Shown one piece after another: positions 30,380-39,641 of a DNA stretch of 64,000 nucleotides. Where the stretch lies: NCBI RefSeq assembly GCF_900115165.1, contig NZ_FOVP01000008.1, positions 1 to 64,000 on the forward strand. The letters run 5' to 3'. The notes below the pieces were generated by a model. The model saw only the letters and a list, made by a program, of their open reading frames with translations, was not told where the DNA came from and ran no database searches. A program made the position numbers and the translations under genes. The first letter of the stretch is position 1, and each line of letters begins with the position of its first letter. The DNA comes from Roseovarius lutimaris. GTDB lineage: Bacteria; Pseudomonadota; Alphaproteobacteria; Rhodobacterales; Rhodobacteraceae.

Positions 30380-33097
30380 CTAGCCGCCAAGCGACCACCA
30401 GCCACGGCGTTTGGGCTTGGTGTCTTCCTTTGCGACCTCCTCAACCACCGGTGCCGGGGCTGGTTCGGGCTCTGGCGTGATCGCAGCCGGTTCCGGCTCC
30501 GGGGCTGGCTCGGGCTCTGGCGTGACCGCAACCGGTTCCGGCTCCGGGGTCGTCGGCTCGGGTTCTGGGGCGACCATCGCGGGCGCTTCGGTCGCGGGGT
30601 CCTCTGGCGCGATTTCACCAGTATCGACGGCGTCGGCTTCGGGTGCCGCCTCCGCGACAGGCTCTTTCTTCTTGCGCGGCGCCCGGGTACGTTTGGGCTT
30701 TACGGGCTCTGCCTCGGCGGCGGGCGCGTCCGTTTCTGCTGCGACCGCGTCGGGCTCGGCTTCAGCCGCCTTCGGCTCGGGCTTTTTGCGGGGCTTGCGT
30801 GTGCGCTTGGGCTTGGGCTTTTCCTCGGCCTCGGGCGCAGCCTCGGCAGTGGGTTCGGCGGCTTGCTCTGCGGGTTTCGCATCCGCCTCGGGGGCGGCCT
30901 CTTCGCTTACAGCGCCATTTTCACCGTTTTCGCCATTCTCATCCTGACCATTACCGCCGGATTTGGACCGCCGTCGCCGCCGACGACGGCGCTTTTTCGG
31001 CTTGTCGCCATCCTCATTGCCGTTGGTGGCCTCATCATTGGGGGCCTTGGTGTCCGCCTCAGCCTCGTCCGCCGCCACATCCGCTGTGACCTCGTCTTCG
31101 GGGTCATCCATCAACGAGCTGTTAGCCGAGACAAATTGCGGCACAACCATTTCGGGCACGGCGCGGGTTGCGGTCTTGAATTTCTCAAGCGTGAAATCAG
31201 GGCTGACAAGCATCGGGTCGCCCTCGATGCGCACCGACAGACCATAGCGGGTTTCGATCCCGGCCACATGCTCGCGCTTCTGGTTCATCAGATAGTTGGC
31301 AATGCCCACCGGACATTTCACCAGAACCTCGCGCGAGCGGCGGCGCACGCCCTCTTCTTCAATCTGACGCAGGATCGACAGCGCAAGGTTGTCATCCGAG
31401 CGGATAAGACCGGTGCCATGACAGGCCGGGCACGGCTGGGTCGTGGCCTCGATCATGCCGGGGCGCAGACGCTGGCGCGACATTTCCATCAGGCCAAAGC
31501 CGGAAATCCGGCCAACCTGAATGCGCGCGCGGTCGGTCTTGAGCTTGTCTTTCATGCGCTTTTCGACGGCCGTGTTGTTGCGACGCTCGTCCATGTCGAT
31601 AAAGTCGATGACGATCAGACCGGCCAGATCGCGCAGCCGCAGTTGGCGGGCGACCTCATCGGCGGCCTCAAGGTTGGTCTTGGTCGCGGTGTCCTCGATC
31701 GAGCCTTCCTTGGTGGCACGACCGGAATTGACGTCGATGGCGACAAGCGCCTCGGTCACGCCGATCACGATATAGCCGCCGGATTTGAGCTGAACCGTGG
31801 GGTTGAACATGCCCGAGAGATAGGATTCGACCTGATGGCGGGCGAAAAGCGGCTGTTGGTCGACGTAGTGTTTCACGTTCTTGGCATGGGACGGCATGAT
31901 CATTTTCATGAAGTCCTTGGCGATGCGATAGCCGCGCTCGCCTTCCACCAGAACCTCGTCGATCTCGCGGTTGTACAAGTCGCGGATCGAGCGTTTGATC
32001 AGATCGCCCTCTTCGTAAATCTTGGCGGGCGCGATGGATTTCAGCGTCAGCTCGCGGATCTGCTCCCAGAGCCGCTGAAGATATTCGTAATCGCGCTTGA
32101 TTTCGGCCTTGGTGCGTTTGGCCCCGGCAGTGCGCACGATAAGACCAGCGCCGGTCGGCACGTCGATCTCATTGGCGATTTCCTTGAGCTTCTTGCGATC
32201 CACCGCATTGGTGATCTTGCGGCTGATCCCGCCGCCACGTGCGGTGTTGGGCATCAACACACAATAGCGACCGGCAAGGCTAAGGTATGTGGTCAGCGCC
32301 GCGCCCTTGTTGCCGCGCTCTTCCTTGACAACCTGCACCAGAAGGATCTGGCGCACCTTGACCACTTCCTGGATCTTGTAGCGGCGCGGGCGCGGTTTGC
32401 GCACCGGGCGGATATCTTCGCTGTCGTCTTCGTCGGCAACCGATTCGATCTCGGCATCGCGCGATGAGTGATCGCGGGCTTTCTCGCCGTTGTCCTCGTC
32501 GTCGCCATCATCATCGCCGACTTCGCTCTCGCTGGCCTGATCGGCTGCGGGCGCGATGTCTTGGGTTTCGGTGACGTCCGGGGCCTCTGCGGTATCGCCG
32601 TCCGGCTCTTCCACGGGGGTTTCGCCAACCCGCTCCATCGGCGACGACCCCTCTTCGCCCTCGCCCTCAAGGTCGATGGTTTCCATGCCGGAAATCTCGG
32701 CATTCACCACCGCATCATCGGATTTGGTGGTCTCTGCCTTGCTGCGCGACCGCGAGCGCGACCGGGTGCGGCGCTTGGGCTTTTCGTCTTCTTCTTTTTG
32801 CGCCTCGGCATAGGCACGTTCTTCTTCCATCAGGGCCTCGCGGTCAGCGACCGGGATCTGATAGTAATCGGGATGAATTTCCGAGAAGGCGAGAAAGCCG
32901 TGGCGATTGCCGCCATAATCAATGAACGCCGCCTGAAGCGACGGTTCGACCCGGGTAACCTTTGCTAGATAGATATTGCCTGCAAGTTGGCGTTTGTTTT
33001 CGGATTCAAAATCAAATTCCTCAACCTTGTTTCCGTCGACCACCACAACGCGGGTTTCTTCCGCGTGGGTGGCATCAATGAGCATTTTCTTAGCCAT
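30380..33097 (-). CDS. rne: Ribonuclease E/G family endoribonuclease
   Basis: A 905-residue RNase E. It has an S1 domain (GNIYLAKVTRVEPSLQAAF, FIDYGGNRHGFLAFSEI) followed by a long acidic and Arg/Ser-rich insertion (about 110-240). The catalytic core then has GLIVRTAG, GGYIVIGVTEALVAIDVNSG, IVIDFIDM and the zinc link CPACHGTG. A disordered C-terminal tail rich in Pro, Glu, Ala and basic RRRRRR-like clusters is the expected degradosome scaffold. ATG at 33097 (MAKKMLIDATHAEE) is the normal start; nine in-frame residues upstream are atypical. It works in mRNA decay and rRNA processing. The tail includes a 45-bp tandem repeat. Confidence 0.93.
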   Translation of the reverse strand: MAKKMLIDATHAEETRVVVVDGNKVEEFDFESENKRQLAGNIYLAKVTRVEPSLQAAFIDYGGNRHGFLAFSEIHPDYYQIPVADREALMEEERAYAEAQKEEDEKPKRRTRSRSRSRSKAETTKSDDAVVNAEISGMETIDLEGEGEEGSSPMERVGETPVEEPDGDTAEAPDVTETQDIAPAADQASESEVGDDDGDDEDNGEKARDHSSRDAEIESVADEDDSEDIRPVRKPRPRRYKIQEVVKVRQILLVQVVKEERGNKGAALTTYLSLAGRYCVLMPNTARGGGISRKITNAVDRKKLKEIANEIDVPTGAGLIVRTAGAKRTKAEIKRDYEYLQRLWEQIRELTLKSIAPAKIYEEGDLIKRSIRDLYNREIDEVLVEGERGYRIAKDFMKMIMPSHAKNVKHYVDQQPLFARHQVESYLSGMFNPTVQLKSGGYIVIGVTEALVAIDVNSGRATKEGSIEDTATKTNLEAADEVARQLRLRDLAGLIVIDFIDMDERRNNTAVEKRMKDKLKTDRARIQVGRISGFGLMEMSRQRLRPGMIEATTQPCPACHGTGLIRSDDNLALSILRQIEEEGVRRRSREVLVKCPVGIANYLMNQKREHVAGIETRYGLSVRIEGDPMLVSPDFTLEKFKTATRAVPEMVVPQFVSANSSLMDDPEDEVTADVAADEAEADTKAPNDEATNGNEDGDKPKKRRRRRRRRSKSGGNGQDENGENGENGAVSEEAAPEADAKPAEQAAEPTAEAAPEAEEKPKPKRTRKPRKKPEPKAAEAEPDAVAAETDAPAAEAEPVKPKRTRAPRKKKEPVAEAAPEADAVDTGEIAPEDPATEAPAMVAPEPEPTTPEPEPVAVTPEPEPAPEPEPAAITPEPEPAPAPVVEEVAKEDTKPKRRGWWSLGG
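30462..30551 (-). repeat. 45-bp tandem repeat in the RNase E tail
   Basis: Two adjacent copies of a 45-base unit encode a Pro-Glu-Pro-rich 15-residue repeat (about AVTPEPEPAPEPEPA) near the C-terminus of RNase E. Copies differ at only a few bases, which suggests recent duplication or ongoing slippage. Confidence 0.75.
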
Positions 33098-33503
33098 GTT
33101 TTCCGTTTGCATCGTGGCGCACACACCTGCCCCAGAAGGGCGGCGCGTTGCGGGCGATGTCTGATAAGGGCGATAGCGCGTGCGCAGCCAAGGGGCCCTG
33201 TATCGGCCCCGGCTTTGACGTTTTGATGTGTCGCGCGCTGCATCGCGGTTCTTTTACTCCGGCACCTGTTGGAGTGCCAATTCAGGGCCTGACCAACCTG
33301 GCATTCAGGGATCAGGCGTGTATTTGGCCCCTTTACGAGGCCCAATCGGTCTATTGGGAACTGCGGGATATCATCCTAGGCACGCACCCAATAGCGAAAC
33401 TCTCTCGGAGGTTGCATCACGATGCATGTCTCCATTCGGGTACACTAAAGCGTCACACAGAGGAATTACAATGGAGAAAATGCGATTCCGCGCGAATGAA
33501 CGC
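33098..33503. other. Intergenic region and probable long rne leader
   Basis: About 400 bases lie between rne and dctD, both read on the minus strand. No gene is supported. It contains a GGGGCC/GGCCCC hairpin near 33193-33211 on the upstream side of rne. A long 5' untranslated region for rne is plausible because RNase E genes are often autoregulated through one, but no specific element was recognised. Confidence 0.35.
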
Positions 33504-34838
33504 TCAGAGATAATCCGAGCGTTGCAGCGCATATTTCGCCATTTTTTCATTCAGGGTGCGGCGCGGCAGGCAGAGTTCCTCCATCACTGCCGCAATCGAC
33601 CCTTTGTGGCGGCGCATGGTGTTGTCGATCAGCATCCTCTCGAACGCCTCGACATATTCCTTGAGCGGCTTGCCCTCGGTGGTCATCACCGGTTGCATGT
33701 CCTGATGATCCGATATCAGCAGCGAGGCGATGGTGCCGCTGCCCCGGCGCGATTGCAGCACCGCGCGCTCGGCGACGTTGAAAAGCTGGCGCACATTGCC
33801 CGGCCAGGGCGCCTGCAAAAGCTGGGTCGCCTCCTGCGCCGAGACCTGCGGCGCGTCGCAGCCATAATCATCGGCAAACTGATCGCTGAACCGGGTGAAC
33901 AGCGTCAGGATATCTTCGCCCCGCTGGCGCAGCGGCGGCAGGGTGATGCGCAGCGACGCCAATCGGTAAAACAGATCAGGGCGAAGCGCGTCTTCACAGG
34001 TGCGCCCCTCGTCCTGCATGTTGGAAATCGCGACAATACGGGTTTCGGGCGGCGTGCCATCGTCATTGATATGGGTCAGAAGACGGGCCTGCGCCGCCTC
34101 GGAGAGGGATTCGATATCCTCAAGCACGAGCGTGCCGCCGCGCGCCTCTTCGACCGCGGGCAACTGGGTGTCTTCGGGGTGCATCGGGCCGAACAGCCGC
34201 TTGATCAGCGCCTCTTCCTCGAACGCGGCGCAGGAGACGGTGACAAACTTTTTGCCTGCCCGTGCGCCGACCGCATGAAGCGCGTGCGCCACAAGGGTCT
34301 TGCCGGTGCCGGTCTCGCCCTCGATCAGAACGTGACCATCGGCCTGCCCCAGATCAAGAATATCCTCTTTCAGCCGCTCCATCGCCTGGCTGGTGCCGAT
34401 CAGCTTTTTCATGAGCTGGCCGCCATCCGACAGCTCTTTGCGCAACGCGCGGCTATCAAGCGTCATGCGGCGCGCCTGCGTGGCCTTTTTGGCCAGTTCG
34501 GTCATGCGATCCGGGTTGAACGGCTTTTCCAGGAAATCAAACGCCCCGATGCGCATCGCCTCGACCGCCATCGGCACATCGCCATGCCCGGTGATCATGA
34601 TCACCGGCAGGCTTGAATCCGCCCCCATCAGCTTTTTGAGGAACTGCATGCCATCCATGCCCGGCATCTTGATGTCGGTGACCACGATGCCCGGATAATC
34701 CACCCCCAGAGATTTCAACGCCTCTTCGGCGCTTGGAAAGGCCTCGGTGTCATAGCCTGACAGGGCCAGCCACTGGCTGATCGACTGACGCATGTCTTTT
34801 TCGTCGTCAACAATCGCAATCTTCATCGCACTTGGCAT
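33504..34838 (-). CDS. dctD: DctD-like response regulator with degenerate sigma-54 AAA+ domain
   Basis: A 444-residue NtrC-family regulator. The receiver (residues 5-120) has the phospho-Asp D55 in VVTDIKMPG and the Lys of FLEKPF. The AAA+ domain has Walker A GETGTGKT (174-181) and DLFYRL downstream, and the C-terminal Fis-type HTH reads GSIAAVMEELCLPRRTLNEK. The segment between them is abnormal: where NtrC-type proteins have ELFGHE-x-GAFTGA, this reads KRLFGPMHPEDTQLP, and Walker B reads LVLED instead of LFLDE. The sigma-54 contact loop is therefore missing. It follows dctB by 6 bases and should receive phosphate from it; C4-dicarboxylate sensing is inferred from family. Confidence 0.85.
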   Translation of the reverse strand: MPSAMKIAIVDDEKDMRQSISQWLALSGYDTEAFPSAEEALKSLGVDYPGIVVTDIKMPGMDGMQFLKKLMGADSSLPVIMITGHGDVPMAVEAMRIGAFDFLEKPFNPDRMTELAKKATQARRMTLDSRALRKELSDGGQLMKKLIGTSQAMERLKEDILDLGQADGHVLIEGETGTGKTLVAHALHAVGARAGKKFVTVSCAAFEEEALIKRLFGPMHPEDTQLPAVEEARGGTLVLEDIESLSEAAQARLLTHINDDGTPPETRIVAISNMQDEGRTCEDALRPDLFYRLASLRITLPPLRQRGEDILTLFTRFSDQFADDYGCDAPQVSAQEATQLLQAPWPGNVRQLFNVAERAVLQSRRGSGTIASLLISDHQDMQPVMTTEGKPLKEYVEAFERMLIDNTMRRHKGSIAAVMEELCLPRRTLNEKMAKYALQRSDYL

Positions 34839-34844
34839 TCTATA

Positions 34845-36614
34845 TCACTCCGCTGCACGGGTCTTTTCCGGCTCTTGTTGCAAGATAGGTAGTTGCATTT
34901 CAAATACAGCCCCCCCATCAATCGCATTGCGCGCCGTAAGACGCCCGCCTAGGTCGTTTACGATACCCGATGAAATGGCAAGCCCCAAGCCGACCCCGTC
35001 ACCGGGAAGCTTGGTTGTGTAAAACGGCTCGAAAATGTTCTCGAAGTTGACAATCCCGGTGCCATTGTCGCGCACCGTCAGGATCGCGGTTTCCCCGGCG
35101 GCCAACAGGATACCGATGGTGGCATCCTTGACGTTTTCGGTGGCATCCATGGCGTTGCGCAAGAGGTTGATCATGACCTGTTCCACGCGCACCCGATCGC
35201 CCATGATCATCACCGGTTCACTGGGCAGGGTGCGGTCGATCTTGATCTTGCGCAGACGTAGCTGCGGTTCCATCATCGCAAGCGCCGAGGCAAGCGCATC
35301 GCCCATGTTTACAGGCTCGAACGTGTCACCACTCCGGCGCGCATAGGACTTGAGCTGTTTGGTGATCGCGCCCATCCGCTCGATCAGATCGTCGATCCGC
35401 TGGAACGACGACAGCGCCTCATCCGGGCGGTTTCGAGTCAGCAAAAGCCGCGCGCCAGCCAGATAGGTTTTCATCGCCGCCAAGGGTTGGTTCAGCTCGT
35501 GGCTGACCGCCGCCGACATCTCGCCCAGAGCCGCCAGTTTCGAGCTTTGCTGAAGCGTCTGTTCGGCCACGGCAAGGTTTTCCTGCACCCGTCGGCGTTC
35601 GGCGATTTCCCGCTGGAGCCGGGCATTCAATGCGCGAAGCTCTGCCGATTCCCGCTGAAACAGGACCATGCGCACGGCGGTGCGCCGGTTCAGGAAATAA
35701 AATGCGAGCGCCAGAAGAATCGCAAAGCCCATGATTTCAAGCGCGAGATAGCCGTTTACCTTGTCGCGCACGGCGGCATAGGTGGTGAAACTGGCAATGC
35801 GCCAGCCCCGAAACGCCACCCGCCCCTCGACGCGCATCACCGCCTCGCCGCGTACATAGGCATCGGGGGGCAAGGCGGTCCAGTCGGCGGTGGCCTGAAT
35901 GGCGCGCTGGATGGCGCTATTGGCGGGCTCGCGGCGCAGCGCGTCGGCCTCTGTCACACCGCGCCAGCGGGGTTCGGTTGCAAGGATGATCTGGCCCTCG
36001 CTATCGGTGACCATCACCGCATCGGAAATCCCCGCCCAGGCCCGTTCATACTTGCGCAGATCAACCTCGACCAGGATCACGCCAAGCACTTCGTTCTGCG
36101 TGTCGATCCGGCGCGAATAATAAAAGTTATATTGGCCCGATTCCTGACGCAACACCTTGAAAACAGTATCTCTTGAGCGCAGGGCATCAACAAAATACGG
36201 CTCCTGCTTGAGCGACTTGCCAAGCGAACTGCGCTCGGTCGCGGCCACCGTGCGCCCGTCCTTGTCAAGCAGGGTCAAAGACGCGGCGCCGATCTCGCTC
36301 AGGAAGGAGATAAGCCGCTGCGTGGACTGGGCGTAATCATCGGTACTGAGCGCCCGAATAAGCGCCGGGTCACGCGCCAGAAGCTGGGGCACAATCGCGT
36401 TCTGGCGCAGCTCGCTCAGCAAGTTGCCGCTGTAAAGCACCAGCCGCAGCTCGGCGCGGTTGCGGGTGTTTTCGGTAAAGCGGTCGGTCAACAGGCGATT
36501 GGTCACCACCACCACCGACACCGCCAGCACCACAAGCGCCAAGAGCACAAGGCGCGCGCGCCAGCTTATGGTGCGCATGCGGGAGGGTGGGGTTTTGACC
36601 AATGAGCCGCTCAT
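34845..36614 (-). CDS. dctB: DctB-like sensor histidine kinase
   Basis: A 589-residue membrane kinase. A first transmembrane helix (about 18-40) and a second (about 290-308) enclose a large periplasmic double-PAS (dCache-like) sensor, as in DctB of C4-dicarboxylate systems. A coiled coil follows, then the H-box AVSHELNQPLAAM with phospho-acceptor His372. The ATPase domain has an N-box (NLLRNAMDAT), G1 box (VRDNGTGI) and G2 (GVGLGLAISSGIV). It pairs with the adjacent regulator. No dicarboxylate transporter genes are in the window, so the ligand is an inference from family. Confidence 0.9.
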   Translation of the reverse strand: MSGSLVKTPPSRMRTISWRARLVLLALVVLAVSVVVVTNRLLTDRFTENTRNRAELRLVLYSGNLLSELRQNAIVPQLLARDPALIRALSTDDYAQSTQRLISFLSEIGAASLTLLDKDGRTVAATERSSLGKSLKQEPYFVDALRSRDTVFKVLRQESGQYNFYYSRRIDTQNEVLGVILVEVDLRKYERAWAGISDAVMVTDSEGQIILATEPRWRGVTEADALRREPANSAIQRAIQATADWTALPPDAYVRGEAVMRVEGRVAFRGWRIASFTTYAAVRDKVNGYLALEIMGFAILLALAFYFLNRRTAVRMVLFQRESAELRALNARLQREIAERRRVQENLAVAEQTLQQSSKLAALGEMSAAVSHELNQPLAAMKTYLAGARLLLTRNRPDEALSSFQRIDDLIERMGAITKQLKSYARRSGDTFEPVNMGDALASALAMMEPQLRLRKIKIDRTLPSEPVMIMGDRVRVEQVMINLLRNAMDATENVKDATIGILLAAGETAILTVRDNGTGIVNFENIFEPFYTTKLPGDGVGLGLAISSGIVNDLGGRLTARNAIDGGAVFEMQLPILQQEPEKTRAAE

Positions 36615-36687
36615 GAACTAAACTCTAGGCCGCACGGTCGGCTGCCTCAAGGTGTCCGGTCTCAGAGAGTCTGGCCACACGGCGGCG

Positions 36688-37356
36688 TCAGGCGTCGGCA
36701 AGCTGGTTCACAAGAGATGTAAACATCGCCGCGCCGTCGCTGCCACCGTGAAGCGGCTCTGCCATGCGTTCAGGATGCGGCATCATGCCAAGCACGCGAC
36801 GGTTGTCAGACAGGATACCGGCAATGTCGCGGGCCGACCCGTTGGGATTGTCGTCATAGGTAAAGGCCACACGATCCTCTTTCTCAAGCCGATCAAGCGT
36901 GGCATCATCGGCAAAATAATTGCCATCATGGTGGGCAATCGGAACGGTCATGCTGCTGCCCGCAGCATAGCCTTGGGTAAAGGCACTATCGGCGGTCTTC
37001 ACCTTAAGCGAGACCGGCTTGCAGATATATTTCAGCCCGGCATTGCGCAGCAGAACCCCAGGCAACAGCCTGGTTTCGGTCAGCACCTGAAAGCCGTTGC
37101 AGACGCCCAGGACATAACCGCCCTTTTGCGCGTGGGTGATCACCGACCGGCAGATCGGCGAATTGGCCGCAATCGCCCCGCAACGCAGGTAGTCGCCAAA
37201 CGAAAACCCACCCGGAACGCCAATGATATCAACCCCTTGCGGAAGGTCCGTATCCTTGTGCCAGACCATCGACACCTGTGCCCCTGCCCGTTCAAAGGCG
37301 ACGGCCAGATCACGGTCACAGTTGGATCCCGGGAAAACGATGATGGCCGCTTTCAT
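36688..37356 (-). CDS. purQ: Phosphoribosylformylglycinamidine synthase subunit PurQ
   Basis: A 222-residue class I glutamine amidotransferase, the ammonia-producing subunit of FGAM synthase in purine synthesis. [12 protein letters not shown] opens the protein, the catalytic cysteine is in [15 protein letters not shown], and the His/Glu pair is in MMPHPER. It forms a PurLQS complex with PurS encoded upstream; purL is not in the window. It follows the alcohol dehydrogenase gene by only 10 bases, so a foreign-looking enzyme sits in the middle of this operon. Confidence 0.96.
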
Positions 37357-37366
37357 GGCGCGCTCC

Positions 37367-38410
37367 TTAGCTTGAGAAATCTGTGATGACAGCTACGCCA
37401 GGCGGGGCTGCCTTGTCAAACGCCGCAAGTTCTGACGTCACCGCGCTGAGCGCGATGCGGCGGGTCACCAACGGGTTCAGGTCGACATGACCGCCCTCAA
37501 TCAGGCTGAGCAGGCTGGGATAGCACCAGCTCGGCATGCCGCGCGTGCCGTAAATCGCCAGCTGCCCGGAATAGACCACATCCATCGGAATCGGCATGGT
37601 CGCGTGATCGCCCGCAGGCATCCCCACCTGAACCAGCCGCCCGAGTTTGCGCAGGGATTTGAGCGCGCCGATGGTTGTGGCCGCAATGCCCAGGGCCTCA
37701 ATCGCAAGATCGGCCCCGCCGCCGGTGATCTCTTTCACAACGCTCGCGGCATCGACCTGCGCCGCATTGACCACCGCATCGGCGCCAAGCGCCCTGGCAT
37801 AGGCCAGTTTTTCGGGAACGATATCAACCACCACGACGCGCGCGCCAAGCGCTCGCCCCAGCAACAGCGCCGAAATTCCAACACCACCACCCCCAAAAAC
37901 CGCCAGCCATTCCCCCGGCCGCAGGGCCGCGCGCCCGGTCAGGGCGTGCCAGGCGGTTGTCACCCGACACCCCAGACCAGCGGCCAACTCGGGGCTGATC
38001 CCTGTCGGCAAGGCGGTCAGGTTGGCATCGGCAAAGGGCACGGCAATCTGTTCGGCAAAGGCGCCCGGAATGGTAAAGCCCGGCACCGCCTGATCTAGAC
38101 AGATCGTCTGATGTCCGGCGGCGCAATCGGGGCAAGCGCCACAGGCCAAAATGAAGGGCGCAATAACCCGGTCGCCGATTTGCCAGCGAGTGGTGCCTTG
38201 ACCGACGCCAATCACCTCGCCGCAAAATTCATGGCCCGGCGTATGCGGCAGCGCCACATCAGGATCGGCCCCGACCCAGGCATGCCAGTCAGAGCGGCAA
38301 ACGCCACAGGCCAGAACCTTGAGAACCACGCCACCCTTGGGGGCTTCAGGATCGGGCACGTCAACGATTTCAAGCGGTTCCCGCCAGGCCGTCAGCCGGG
38401 CGGCCCGCAT
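37367..38410 (-). CDS. Zinc-dependent alcohol dehydrogenase family protein within the purine operon
   Basis: A 347-residue medium-chain dehydrogenase. The catalytic zinc site ([10 protein letters not shown] and [10 protein letters not shown]) and the structural zinc cysteines ([15 protein letters not shown]) are complete, followed by a Rossmann NAD-binding motif ([20 protein letters not shown]). The substrate is not identifiable from sequence. Its ATG overlaps the purS stop by one base (TGATG) and purQ follows 10 bases later, so it is translated within the purS-purQ transcript. The link to purine synthesis is unexplained. Confidence 0.9.
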
Positions 38411-38649
38411 CAGCCCAGCTCCACCGAGTAGCTTTCGATCACGATATTGGCCAGAAGCTTTTCACACATATCGGTGACGGCTTTGCGGGCCTCGGCCTCG
38501 TCGGTCTCGGCCAGATCAAGCTCGATCACCTTGCCCTGGCGAACGCCGTTCACCCCGTCAAAGCCCAAGGACCCAAGCGCGTGGCGCACGGCCTCGCCCT
38601 GTGGATCGAGAACCCCGGTTTTCAACATGACATGCACGCGTGCTTTCAT
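38410..38649 (-). CDS. purS: Phosphoribosylformylglycinamidine synthase subunit PurS
   Basis: A 79-residue small subunit of the PurLQS complex. KARVHVMLKTGVLDPQGEAV, HALGSLGFDGVNGVRQGKVIELDL and CEKLLANIVIESY match the family along its whole length. It bridges PurL and PurQ for ammonia channelling. It lies 68 bases after purC and overlaps the dehydrogenase gene by one base. Confidence 0.95.
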   Translation of the reverse strand: MKARVHVMLKTGVLDPQGEAVRHALGSLGFDGVNGVRQGKVIELDLAETDEAEARKAVTDMCEKLLANIVIESYSVELG

Positions 38650-38717
38650 GGCGTCTTTCCTATGTGGTCTGGCGGCGCGTATCGCGCCGGATGGTCATTG
38701 GGCGCAAAGCCGCGCCC

Positions 38718-39479
38718 TTAGTTGATAAGCGTCGGCCGCGCCATCGGGGTGGCCCCTTTGGGCATGACGCCAAGACGGTTTGCCACCTCGGTATAGGCAT
38801 CCGTGAGGCTGCCGAGATCACGGCGGAACACGTCCTTGTCAAGCTTGCGACCGGTTTCGATATCCCACAAACGACAACTGTCGGGGCTGATCTCATCGGC
38901 AACGATCAGGCGCTGGAAGTCGCCATCATAGACGCGGCCGACCTCAATCTTGAAATCCACTAGCTTGATGCCGATACCGAACATCACACCGGCCATGAAA
39001 TCATTGACCCGCAGCGCAAGGCTGAGGATATCGTCCATATCCTGCTGGCTGGCCCAGCCAAAGGCGGCGATATGCTCTTCTGTCACCAGAGGATCGCCAA
39101 GCGCATCATCCTTGAGGCAATATTCGACAATCGGGCGCGGCAGTTGCGTGCCCTCTTCGATGCCAAGCCGCTTGGCCATGGAGCCTGCGGCATAGTTGCG
39201 CACGATGATTTCAAGCGGCACAATTTCACAGGCGCGCACCAGTTGTTCGCGCATATTGATCCGCTTGATGAAATGCGTCGGCACGCCAATCGTGTTCAGC
39301 CCGGTCATGAAATATTCCGAAAGCATGTTGTTAAGCACGCCCTTGCCTTCGATCACCGCCTTCTTTTCGGCATTGAAAGCGGTGGCATCATCCTTGAAAT
39401 ACTGAATGATCGTGCCGGGTTCTGGCCCTTCATAGAGGGTCTTTGCCTTGCCTTCGTAAATTTTCTTGCGCCGCGCCAT
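38718..39479 (-). CDS. purC: Phosphoribosylaminoimidazole-succinocarboxamide synthase
   Basis: A 253-residue SAICAR synthetase of the purine pathway, which joins aspartate to CAIR using [17 protein letters not shown] is the ATP-binding start, followed by [23 protein letters not shown] and the signature [15 protein letters not shown]. It is the first gene of the minus-strand set purC-purS-ADH-purQ. Confidence 0.97.
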
Positions 39480-39641
39480 GCCAACTCCGCCGGTTGGGTC
39501 AGGGGCCGAGTCCCCTGTACCGTTGCGCTCTCATAGTGCATGGGCGGCATTGTCGCAAGATCACGTTGGCCCCTTGCCCTTTGGCGCACAGAATTGCATA
39601 TCTTGATAGAGATTAATCCTTGGCTAATGGGGAATGGACCT

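Follow-up and report, generated by a model that had tools for sequence, protein, structure and literature searches.

We use computational sequence analysis to study the response regulator DctD1 and its sensor kinase partner DctB1, which are encoded side by side on the minus strand of a 64,000-nucleotide stretch of Roseovarius lutimaris DNA (contig NZ_FOVP01000008.1, positions 1 to 64,000; this whole stretch is called the window). DctD1 has the architecture of the NtrC/DctD group of enhancer-binding proteins, in which Pfam recognises a receiver (REC), an AAA+ domain (Sigma54_activat) and a Fis-type helix-turn-helix (HTH), and an earlier note on this DNA had predicted that it should not activate sigma-54 promoters in the standard way. 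We find this prediction supported: canonical activation is not expected because the loop that contacts sigma-54 is absent from every orthologue row and the gene for sigma-54, rpoN, is undetectable in the genome. It is nearly certain, in our judgement, that DctD1 is independent of sigma-54 in this organism. We further consider it likely, for the reading as a whole, that DctD1 is gated by phosphorylation, binds ATP and regulates housekeeping-sigma promoters in the manner of NtrC of Rhodobacter capsulatus. Throughout, the family is Rhodobacteraceae in the GTDB sense (296 genomes searched, completeness filter 90%), a row is one sequence in an alignment of 160 DctD1 orthologues, and rpoN+ and rpoN- denote genomes scored as having or lacking rpoN. 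The features that carry the argument are the following.

33504..34838, minus strand: dctD1, response regulator (REC, AAA+, Fis-type HTH) of 444 amino acids; matches at E ≤ 1e-100 in 276 of 296 family genomes
34674..34676, minus strand: Asp55 of DctD1, the phospho-acceptor expected from its family; D in 160 of 160 rows
34296..34319, minus strand: Walker A GETGTGKT (ATP binding), residues 174-181; Lys in 157 of 160 rows, Arg in 3
34140..34193, minus strand: shortened loop 1, FGPMHPEDTQLPAVEEAR, in the place of the GAFTGA loop, residues 216-233; GAFTGA-like in 0 of 160 rows
34116..34139, minus strand: altered Walker B GGTLVLED (ED, not DE), residues 234-241; ED in 141 of 160 rows, DE in 2
33960..33986, minus strand: arginine-finger region LRPDLFYRL; each of its two Arg in 157 of 160 rows
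33531..33566, minus strand: recognition-helix stretch PRRTLNEKMAKY; mean modal frequency 0.995 over residues 424-436

The motif reading in the earlier note (Walker A kept, GAFTGA replaced, Walker B reading LVLED) is exact. Where GAFTGA-bearing relatives from outside the family read FGHEKGAFTGA..., DctD1 carries FGPMHPEDTQLPAVEEAR, and the stretch from F to GG spans 18 residues as against 23 in the relative L260 (hand count). The relatives L260-L263 and L266 have DE in Walker B, unlike the ED of DctD1, and DE is also kept in an NtrC-like protein (L006) of the window's own genome. Set against the NtrC/DctD group, DctD1 lacks the GAFTGA loop 1 and the D-E pair and retains the Walker A lysine and the arginine finger; set against the R. 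capsulatus NtrC kind, it shares a loop 1 without GAFTGA together with a retained ATP-binding site and phospho-Asp. Structures that match its fold are found among sigma-54-dependent activators as well as among members with a deviant loop, VpsR for example. An AlphaFold model has a mean predicted local distance difference test score (pLDDT) of 60.7, with 64-88 per ten-residue block over residues 151 to 300, and a predicted template modelling score (pTM) of 0.41; it is weak overall and is therefore taken just as agreement with the NtrC-class fold.

These departures from the group are not confined to the window. The 160 rows comprise the window (P0001) and its own copy (L089), so that the window is counted twice, together with 80 named loci, 7 further high-identity loci, 20 divergent loci from low-identity genomes, one Paracoccus plasmid record and 50 loci taken from rpoN+ genomes; another two rows duplicate sequences already present, and L101 (contig end) and L108 (split frame) are incomplete. 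The structure alignment uses 24 rows, without L128 and the divergent rows. The comparison with other Rhodobacterales DctD proteins that the earlier note had proposed bears it out, with no GAFTGA-like motif in any of the 160. No variation is seen at the phospho-Asp, its acidic partners or the Thr and Lys of the receiver. As for Walker B, the pair reads ED in 141 rows, EG in 7, EN in 5 and DE in 2, with EE, EA, EH, DD and KN once each; at its second position (D 142, G 7, N 6, E 3, A 1, H 1) the catalytic Glu is retained in 3 of 160. Identity to the named R. marisflavi orthologue is 98%. For 69 named loci that do not differ in length, the ratio of nonsynonymous to synonymous substitution rates (dN/dS) against the window has a median of 0.100 (receiver 0.076, AAA+ 0.133, HTH 0.027), figures that are rough in that synonymous sites are near saturation and the pairs are non-independent. 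From these values DctD1 appears to be kept under strong selection.

In a few rows DctD1 is more eroded. L113 (G187) and L114 (G014), both from rpoN+ genomes, read GERGAGRS at Walker A, have a changed Walker B and have lost arginine-finger residues; the Walker A Lys has become Arg in these two and in L116; and the match in L108 (G044) is split across two reading frames (residues 1-304 and 301-444). Such rows are what one would cite for the idea that DctD1 is decaying or that its motif loss is a sequence error, to which we give next to no credence given a loss shared by 160 rows and the low dN/dS, both in the median and in the HTH. On the agreement of the 160 rows and the low dN/dS, a pseudogene, a sequence error and a private mutation are all rejected.

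The second line of evidence concerns sigma-54 itself. The assembly to which the window belongs (4.28 Mb, 72 contigs, 99.95% complete) has no match at E ≤ 0.001 to either the DNA-binding (PF04552) or the core-binding (PF04963) domain of RpoN. Among 14 control genomes, each of these searches picks out four, namely those of E. coli, B. subtilis, Caulobacter and a Bacteroides. With two domains tested at this completeness, an assembly gap is an unlikely explanation. Of the 296 genomes of the family, 102 have a PF04552 match at the same threshold, which is strong in 93 and weak in 9 (E 1e-4 to 1e-3, partial domain); the nine are scored rpoN-, with G069 and G271 exceeding Pfam's cut-off. These calls are confined to the 296 family genomes. 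Patchy occurrence of rpoN in the group is already published (PMC11999139). A DctD1 orthologue is present in 80 of the 93 rpoN+ and 196 of the 203 rpoN- genomes, and the loop is missing in every one read. Rows from rpoN+ genomes number 58, eight of which belong to the 20 divergent loci; none has GAFTGA and 49 have ED; two of them, L111 and L112, lack the loop yet keep DE, and look as an intermediate would.

Presence of rpoN goes along with a difference in the other NtrC-class proteins of a genome. The best PF00158 E-value per genome has a median exponent of 67 in rpoN+ genomes (n = 93) versus 49 in rpoN- genomes (n = 203; area under the curve 0.97), and the exponent is at least 62 in 89 of the former and 20 of the latter; the E-values were copied by hand, and p-values for the comparison are overstated because the genomes are related. 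In all 29 of the top-scoring rpoN+ genomes selected for reading, the best NtrC-class protein carries GAFTGA or GSFTGA. Eleven of the 20 high-scoring rpoN- genomes were also read, with Pro in nine and Asn in one at the fourth (Thr) position of the motif. The low-scoring rpoN+ genomes are G027 (with a stop inside its rpoN match), G152, G190 and G231, and of their proteins just the DctD1 of G190 and G231 was read. GAFPGA proteins are found as well in L126 (from the rpoN+ genome G173) and in L127 (S. meliloti), with no demonstrable tie to rpoN loss. The same counts bear on whether DctD1 might keep a non-canonical sigma-54 contact in rpoN+ family members. Its presence in 80 of 93 such genomes, and in 58 of our rows, would allow for this; its presence in 196 of 203 rpoN- genomes, the missing loop wherever it was read and the separate GAFTGA or GSFTGA protein in 29 of 29 genomes speak the other way, and we regard such a contact as very improbable.

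The relatives of DctD1 suggest what its ancestor did. In a 69-row tree (midpoint root for drawing only; L001, L002, L004 and L006 left out) a branch supported at 100/100 sets the 25 DctD1 rows apart from all the others, and the best matches from outside the family, Azospirillum plasmid records among them, reach ~40-42% identity. Seven of these outside-family matches (L260, L261, L262, L263, L266, L251 and L252) all have GAFTGA, the D-E pair and the RRTLNEK helix; PRRTLNEKM is common to DctD1 and L260, L261 and L266, and the DNA-reading helix of DctD1 appears hardly changed from theirs. Among six relatives looked at, a binding-protein gene of the tripartite ATP-independent periplasmic (TRAP) transporter type follows L260, L261 and L266 (by sequence reading, for L260 also by the dctP model) and is not visible after L262, L263 and L271. 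The gaps after the first three hold imperfect palindromes (TCGGCGGA..TCCGCCGA) and a TGGCAT-N5-TTGC sigma-54 promoter, the L261 promoter and most of the palindromes having been read by eye, unflagged by the script. Because palindromes and sigma-54 promoters precede the TRAP-type genes of these three relatives, the ancestors of DctD1 probably acted at the sigma-54 promoters of TRAP operons.

We therefore propose, as a model, that the DctB1/DctD1 pair, conserved across Rhodobacteraceae, would descend from an enhancer-binding regulator that depended on sigma-54 and probably controlled TRAP-transporter operons. The contact loop would have been lost before the family diversified, and the catalytic Glu of Walker B later, in most lineages. 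Present-day DctD1 would form a phosphorylation-gated oligomer that needs bound ATP with little or no hydrolysis; its little-changed HTH would bind palindromic sites, and it would act on housekeeping-sigma promoters, activating and perhaps also repressing them.

The comparison with R. capsulatus NtrC, already drawn in the earlier note, is apt for this model. Both proteins are REC-AAA+-HTH regulators without GAFTGA and both keep the ATP site (DctD1 being known from sequence); DctD1 differs in its DctD-type lineage, its RRTLNEKM helix and its DctB partner. Bowman and Kranz (1998) reportedly described R. capsulatus NtrC as a sigma-70-dependent enhancer-binding protein. It lacks GAFTGA, acts at sigma-70 promoters and needs phosphorylation, and ATP binding rather than hydrolysis is essential to it (PMC10274813). 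The pattern of DctD1, with the ATP site kept and the catalytic Glu gone, would fit R. capsulatus NtrC better than Caulobacter NtrC, because ATP binding is essential in the former and hydrolysis is argued to matter for the latter. Caulobacter NtrC also offers an alternative model: it too lacks GAFTGA, and it represses CtrA-activated genes (PMC10274813). DctD1 could likewise act mainly by repressing or competing at housekeeping promoters, as in that part of the Caulobacter regulon, and no linked transporter has been found for it to activate. The position of three GAFTGA relatives upstream of TRAP-type genes with sigma-54 promoters is an activator arrangement, however, and we think the chiefly repressing role rather unlikely.

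We now turn to the sensor and its surroundings, for which the features are the following.

34845..36614, minus strand: dctB1, sensor histidine kinase partner (dCache, HisKA, HATPase_c by Pfam) of 589 amino acids, adjoining dctD1
36066..36068, minus strand: Glu183 of DctB1, where the DctB sensors of relatives have Lys (tblastn alignments)
36688..37356, minus strand: purQ, conserved upstream neighbour, beside dctB1-dctD1 in 78 of 80 named loci
30380..33124, minus strand: rne (ribonuclease E/G), downstream neighbour in many loci (59 of 80 named loci)

The earlier note had called DctB normal. This holds for the kinase core (HisKA, HATPase_c) and not for the sensor pocket, where relatives have Lys or Arg and DctB1 has Glu. 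In 95 close orthologues (sensor more than 60% identical) position 183 is E in 89, A in 3, D in 2 and L in 1, with Lys in none, and Lys is also absent there from 19 divergent family rows (L108 is in both sets); the same position in 26 relatives is K in 24 and R in 2. DctB1 thus lacks the conserved sensor Lys of DctBD systems. In S. meliloti DctB that lysine reportedly contacts succinate. We infer that the signal of DctB1 has changed. The dCache_1 match lies under the Pfam cut-off (38.2 vs 45 bits).

Relative to S. meliloti DctD/DctB, structural matches to the receiver of DctD1 are the DctD receivers 1qkk and 1l5y, and those to the DctB1 sensor are the DctB structures 3by9, 2zbb and 3e4o. The differences are that DctD1 has no GAFTGA and an RRTLNEK helix rather than the KTFYDK type of S. 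meliloti DctD, that the sensor Lys is replaced by Glu, and that no linked C4-dicarboxylate transporter was found. A search for linked transporters gave none in window positions 31000-39500 and none in the annotated Paracoccus locus; in place of dctA or dctPQM, the neighbours are purQ and often rne. The purQ gene also stands beside the pair in 20 of 20 further rpoN+ loci; in the two named-locus exceptions the contig begins too close, and some of the named loci without rne end early. In the Paracoccus ferrooxidans locus both purQ and ribonuclease E/G are annotated. In L110 (G280) dctD1 comes after purQ and no dctB1 was found between or beside them, making it a possible orphan regulator. In the window, a gene that reads like an alcohol dehydrogenase (37367-38410, minus strand) adjoins purQ among purine genes.

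How does DctD1 compare with the other NtrC-class proteins of the same genome? Besides DctD1, PF00158 matches gave six proteins that were read (on contigs C67, C39, C22 and C70 and two on C26); weak matches on C37 and C21 (~25 bits, open reading frames of 888 and 786 amino acids) were left unread. None of the six has GAFTGA. The best-scoring, on C67 (L001), reads GGFPGA, with Thr changed to Pro, and in the remaining five the loop is shortened or deleted. On C70 (L189, 5195-5244 and 5259-6530) a DctB-like kinase (dctB2) and dctD2 are followed by tandem TGTGCG-type palindromes, TTGTGCGGAAAACCGCACAA and GTGCGGTTTTCCGCAC, and then by dctPQM. DctD2 keeps the KTFYDK recognition helix, but its loop 1 is gone and its Walker A, GPAGAGVS, no longer has the lysine. 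Because the KTFYDK helix, the tandem palindromes and the adjacent dctPQM all fit the C70 gene, DctD1 is probably not the DctD of dctPQM. A third DctBD-like pair, on C22 (L190, 4595-10920), lies beside a TRAP operon preceded by a TTGCGGAATTCCGCAG palindrome; this locus adjoins genes that read like flagellar and motor genes. DctD2, with its HTH kept beside palindromic sites despite the lost lysine, raises the question of whether the AAA+ domain of DctD1 is likewise a scaffold with no ATP role, leaving a simple phospho-switch DNA-binding factor; VspR, too, is reported not to need ATP (PMC10274813). In DctD1 itself the lysine of Walker A is retained in 157 of 160 rows and the arginine finger in equally many, which makes a scaffold a distinctly unlikely account.

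The paralogue also allows a view of enhancer-like sites with and without their promoter, in a comparison that concerns the DctD2 type and not DctD1. Upstream of dctP, four outside-family genomes (G516, G506, G472 and G547) have sigma-54-type promoters scoring 17.5-18 on an ad hoc scale with a maximum of 19, equalled by one or none of 300 simulated sequences. In the family, scores of 12.5-16.5 are obtained for eleven loci from ten genomes, of which four are rpoN+ and six rpoN-; one of these loci, G046b (rpoN+), scores 16.5, above 97% of simulations, and rescoring with longer stretches gives similar scores. A TGTGCG-type palindrome is found by pattern in 5 of the 11 family loci, all rpoN-, and in one of the four outside (G547). 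With palindrome and promoter together in G547 and palindromes without a standout promoter in the family, enhancer-like sites are therefore seen both with and without a promoter.

In vivo data exist for a GAFTGA-less paralogue type in Ruegeria pomeroyi. Its megaplasmid carries a kinase gene, a dctD and the TRAP genes dctPQM in a row; the DctD has no GAFTGA-like motif, and a CTGCGGAAATCCGCAG palindrome lies in the gap before the binding-protein gene. By gene order this DctD is SPOA0237 (dctD-2), the record carrying new tags only. In a transposon fitness study, log2 fitness differences in three co-cultures were -0.27, -0.25 and -0.22 for SPOA0237, -0.18, -0.2 and -0.18 for SPOA0238 (dctP), and -0.14 three times for SPOA0240 (dctM) (PMC10041152). 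Because the regulator and transporter mutants behave alike, the data suggest that this GAFTGA-less DctD works, and positively.

Several points weigh against the reading of DctD1 as a regulator of housekeeping-sigma promoters. The fitness data just described come from the paralogue type (like L003) with tags assigned by gene order, the co-culture effects are small, and the assay gives no direction of regulation. The ED pair of DctD1 might still hydrolyse ATP. Because 93 family genomes do carry rpoN, loop loss is not simply a consequence of rpoN loss, and one genome in which rpoN was undetected (G287) has two adjacent GAFTGA/GSFTGA proteins (L180), although at 94% completeness its rpoN may be absent from the assembly alone. 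Finally, no target promoter of DctD1 was found in site scans. A site modelled on the C22 TRAP locus, TTGCGGAATTCCGCAA, occurs with at most two mismatches at four places in the genome, best at the C22 locus itself, against one place for the control reading. A matrix from six putative sites (chosen by eye beside L260, L261 and L266) finds nothing above background in 256,513 bases of the own genome (overlapping stretches counted separately), with a best score of 15.9 versus 15.6-24.5 for its source sites; because a small part of the 4.28 Mb was covered, this is no evidence of absence. The part that was read of an alignment of the dctD-rne gap (18 of 80 named loci) holds no shared block, and the two gaps beside dctBD in the window hold no exact palindrome with 7-base arms.

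Regulators of the NtrC class that work without GAFTGA have precedents. Jannaschia belongs to the same family as Roseovarius. Sigma-70 dependency was suggested in 2011 for a regulator of Jannaschia sp. CCS1 with a changed GAFTGA, in an organism without sigma-54 (PMC3162934); the change there is Thr/Ser to Glu, as against the shortened loop and altered Walker B of DctD1. Caulobacter NtrC, VspR, TyrR, HupR and DhaR resemble DctD1 as NtrC-class proteins without a working GAFTGA, and they act at sigma-70 promoters (PMC3162934, PMC10274813); they are single regulators, whereas here six more proteins lack GAFTGA and rpoN is undetectable. Loss of GAFTGA with sigma-70 action is published for NtrC, HupR, TyrR and DhaR (PMC3162934, PMC10274813), as is a loop-less Rhodobacterales NtrC (PMC10274813). 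In searches of the open-licence literature, in which most papers were judged by their entries and most subscription papers fall outside, we recognised no account of a loop-less DctD of Rhodobacteraceae. The same holds for its altered Walker B, for the substitution in the sensor and for enhancers retained where the promoter is missing. An activator moving between RNA polymerase classes is, to our knowledge, poorly documented.

Taking DctD1 and its paralogues together, we tentatively suggest, at somewhat less than even chances, that rpoN-less Rhodobacteraceae converted their whole NtrC-class set in place to the housekeeping polymerase. In the activators, GAFTGA would have disappeared through deletion or a Thr-to-Pro change, and the DctD enhancer sites would have been kept while the adjacent sigma-54 promoter went. 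The purQ-linked DctBD1 would have been freed from TRAP control to take a new signal and a new regulon. Activators would have switched sigma factor first, with rpoN dispensable afterwards, an order suggested because loop-less DctD1 occurs in rpoN+ relatives too.

For annotation, the results carry a warning: public records say 'sigma-54-dependent' (in Paracoccus, and for the R. pomeroyi paralogue type) despite the missing contact loop. For the family, they amount to a natural series, from GAFTGA relatives with palindromes and sigma-54 promoters outside it, through loop-less proteins in rpoN+ genomes, to loop-less proteins in genomes without detectable rpoN. At the end of this series, as far as sequence can tell, a widely conserved signalling pair, found mainly in marine bacteria, probably controls its genes by a route other than sigma-54.

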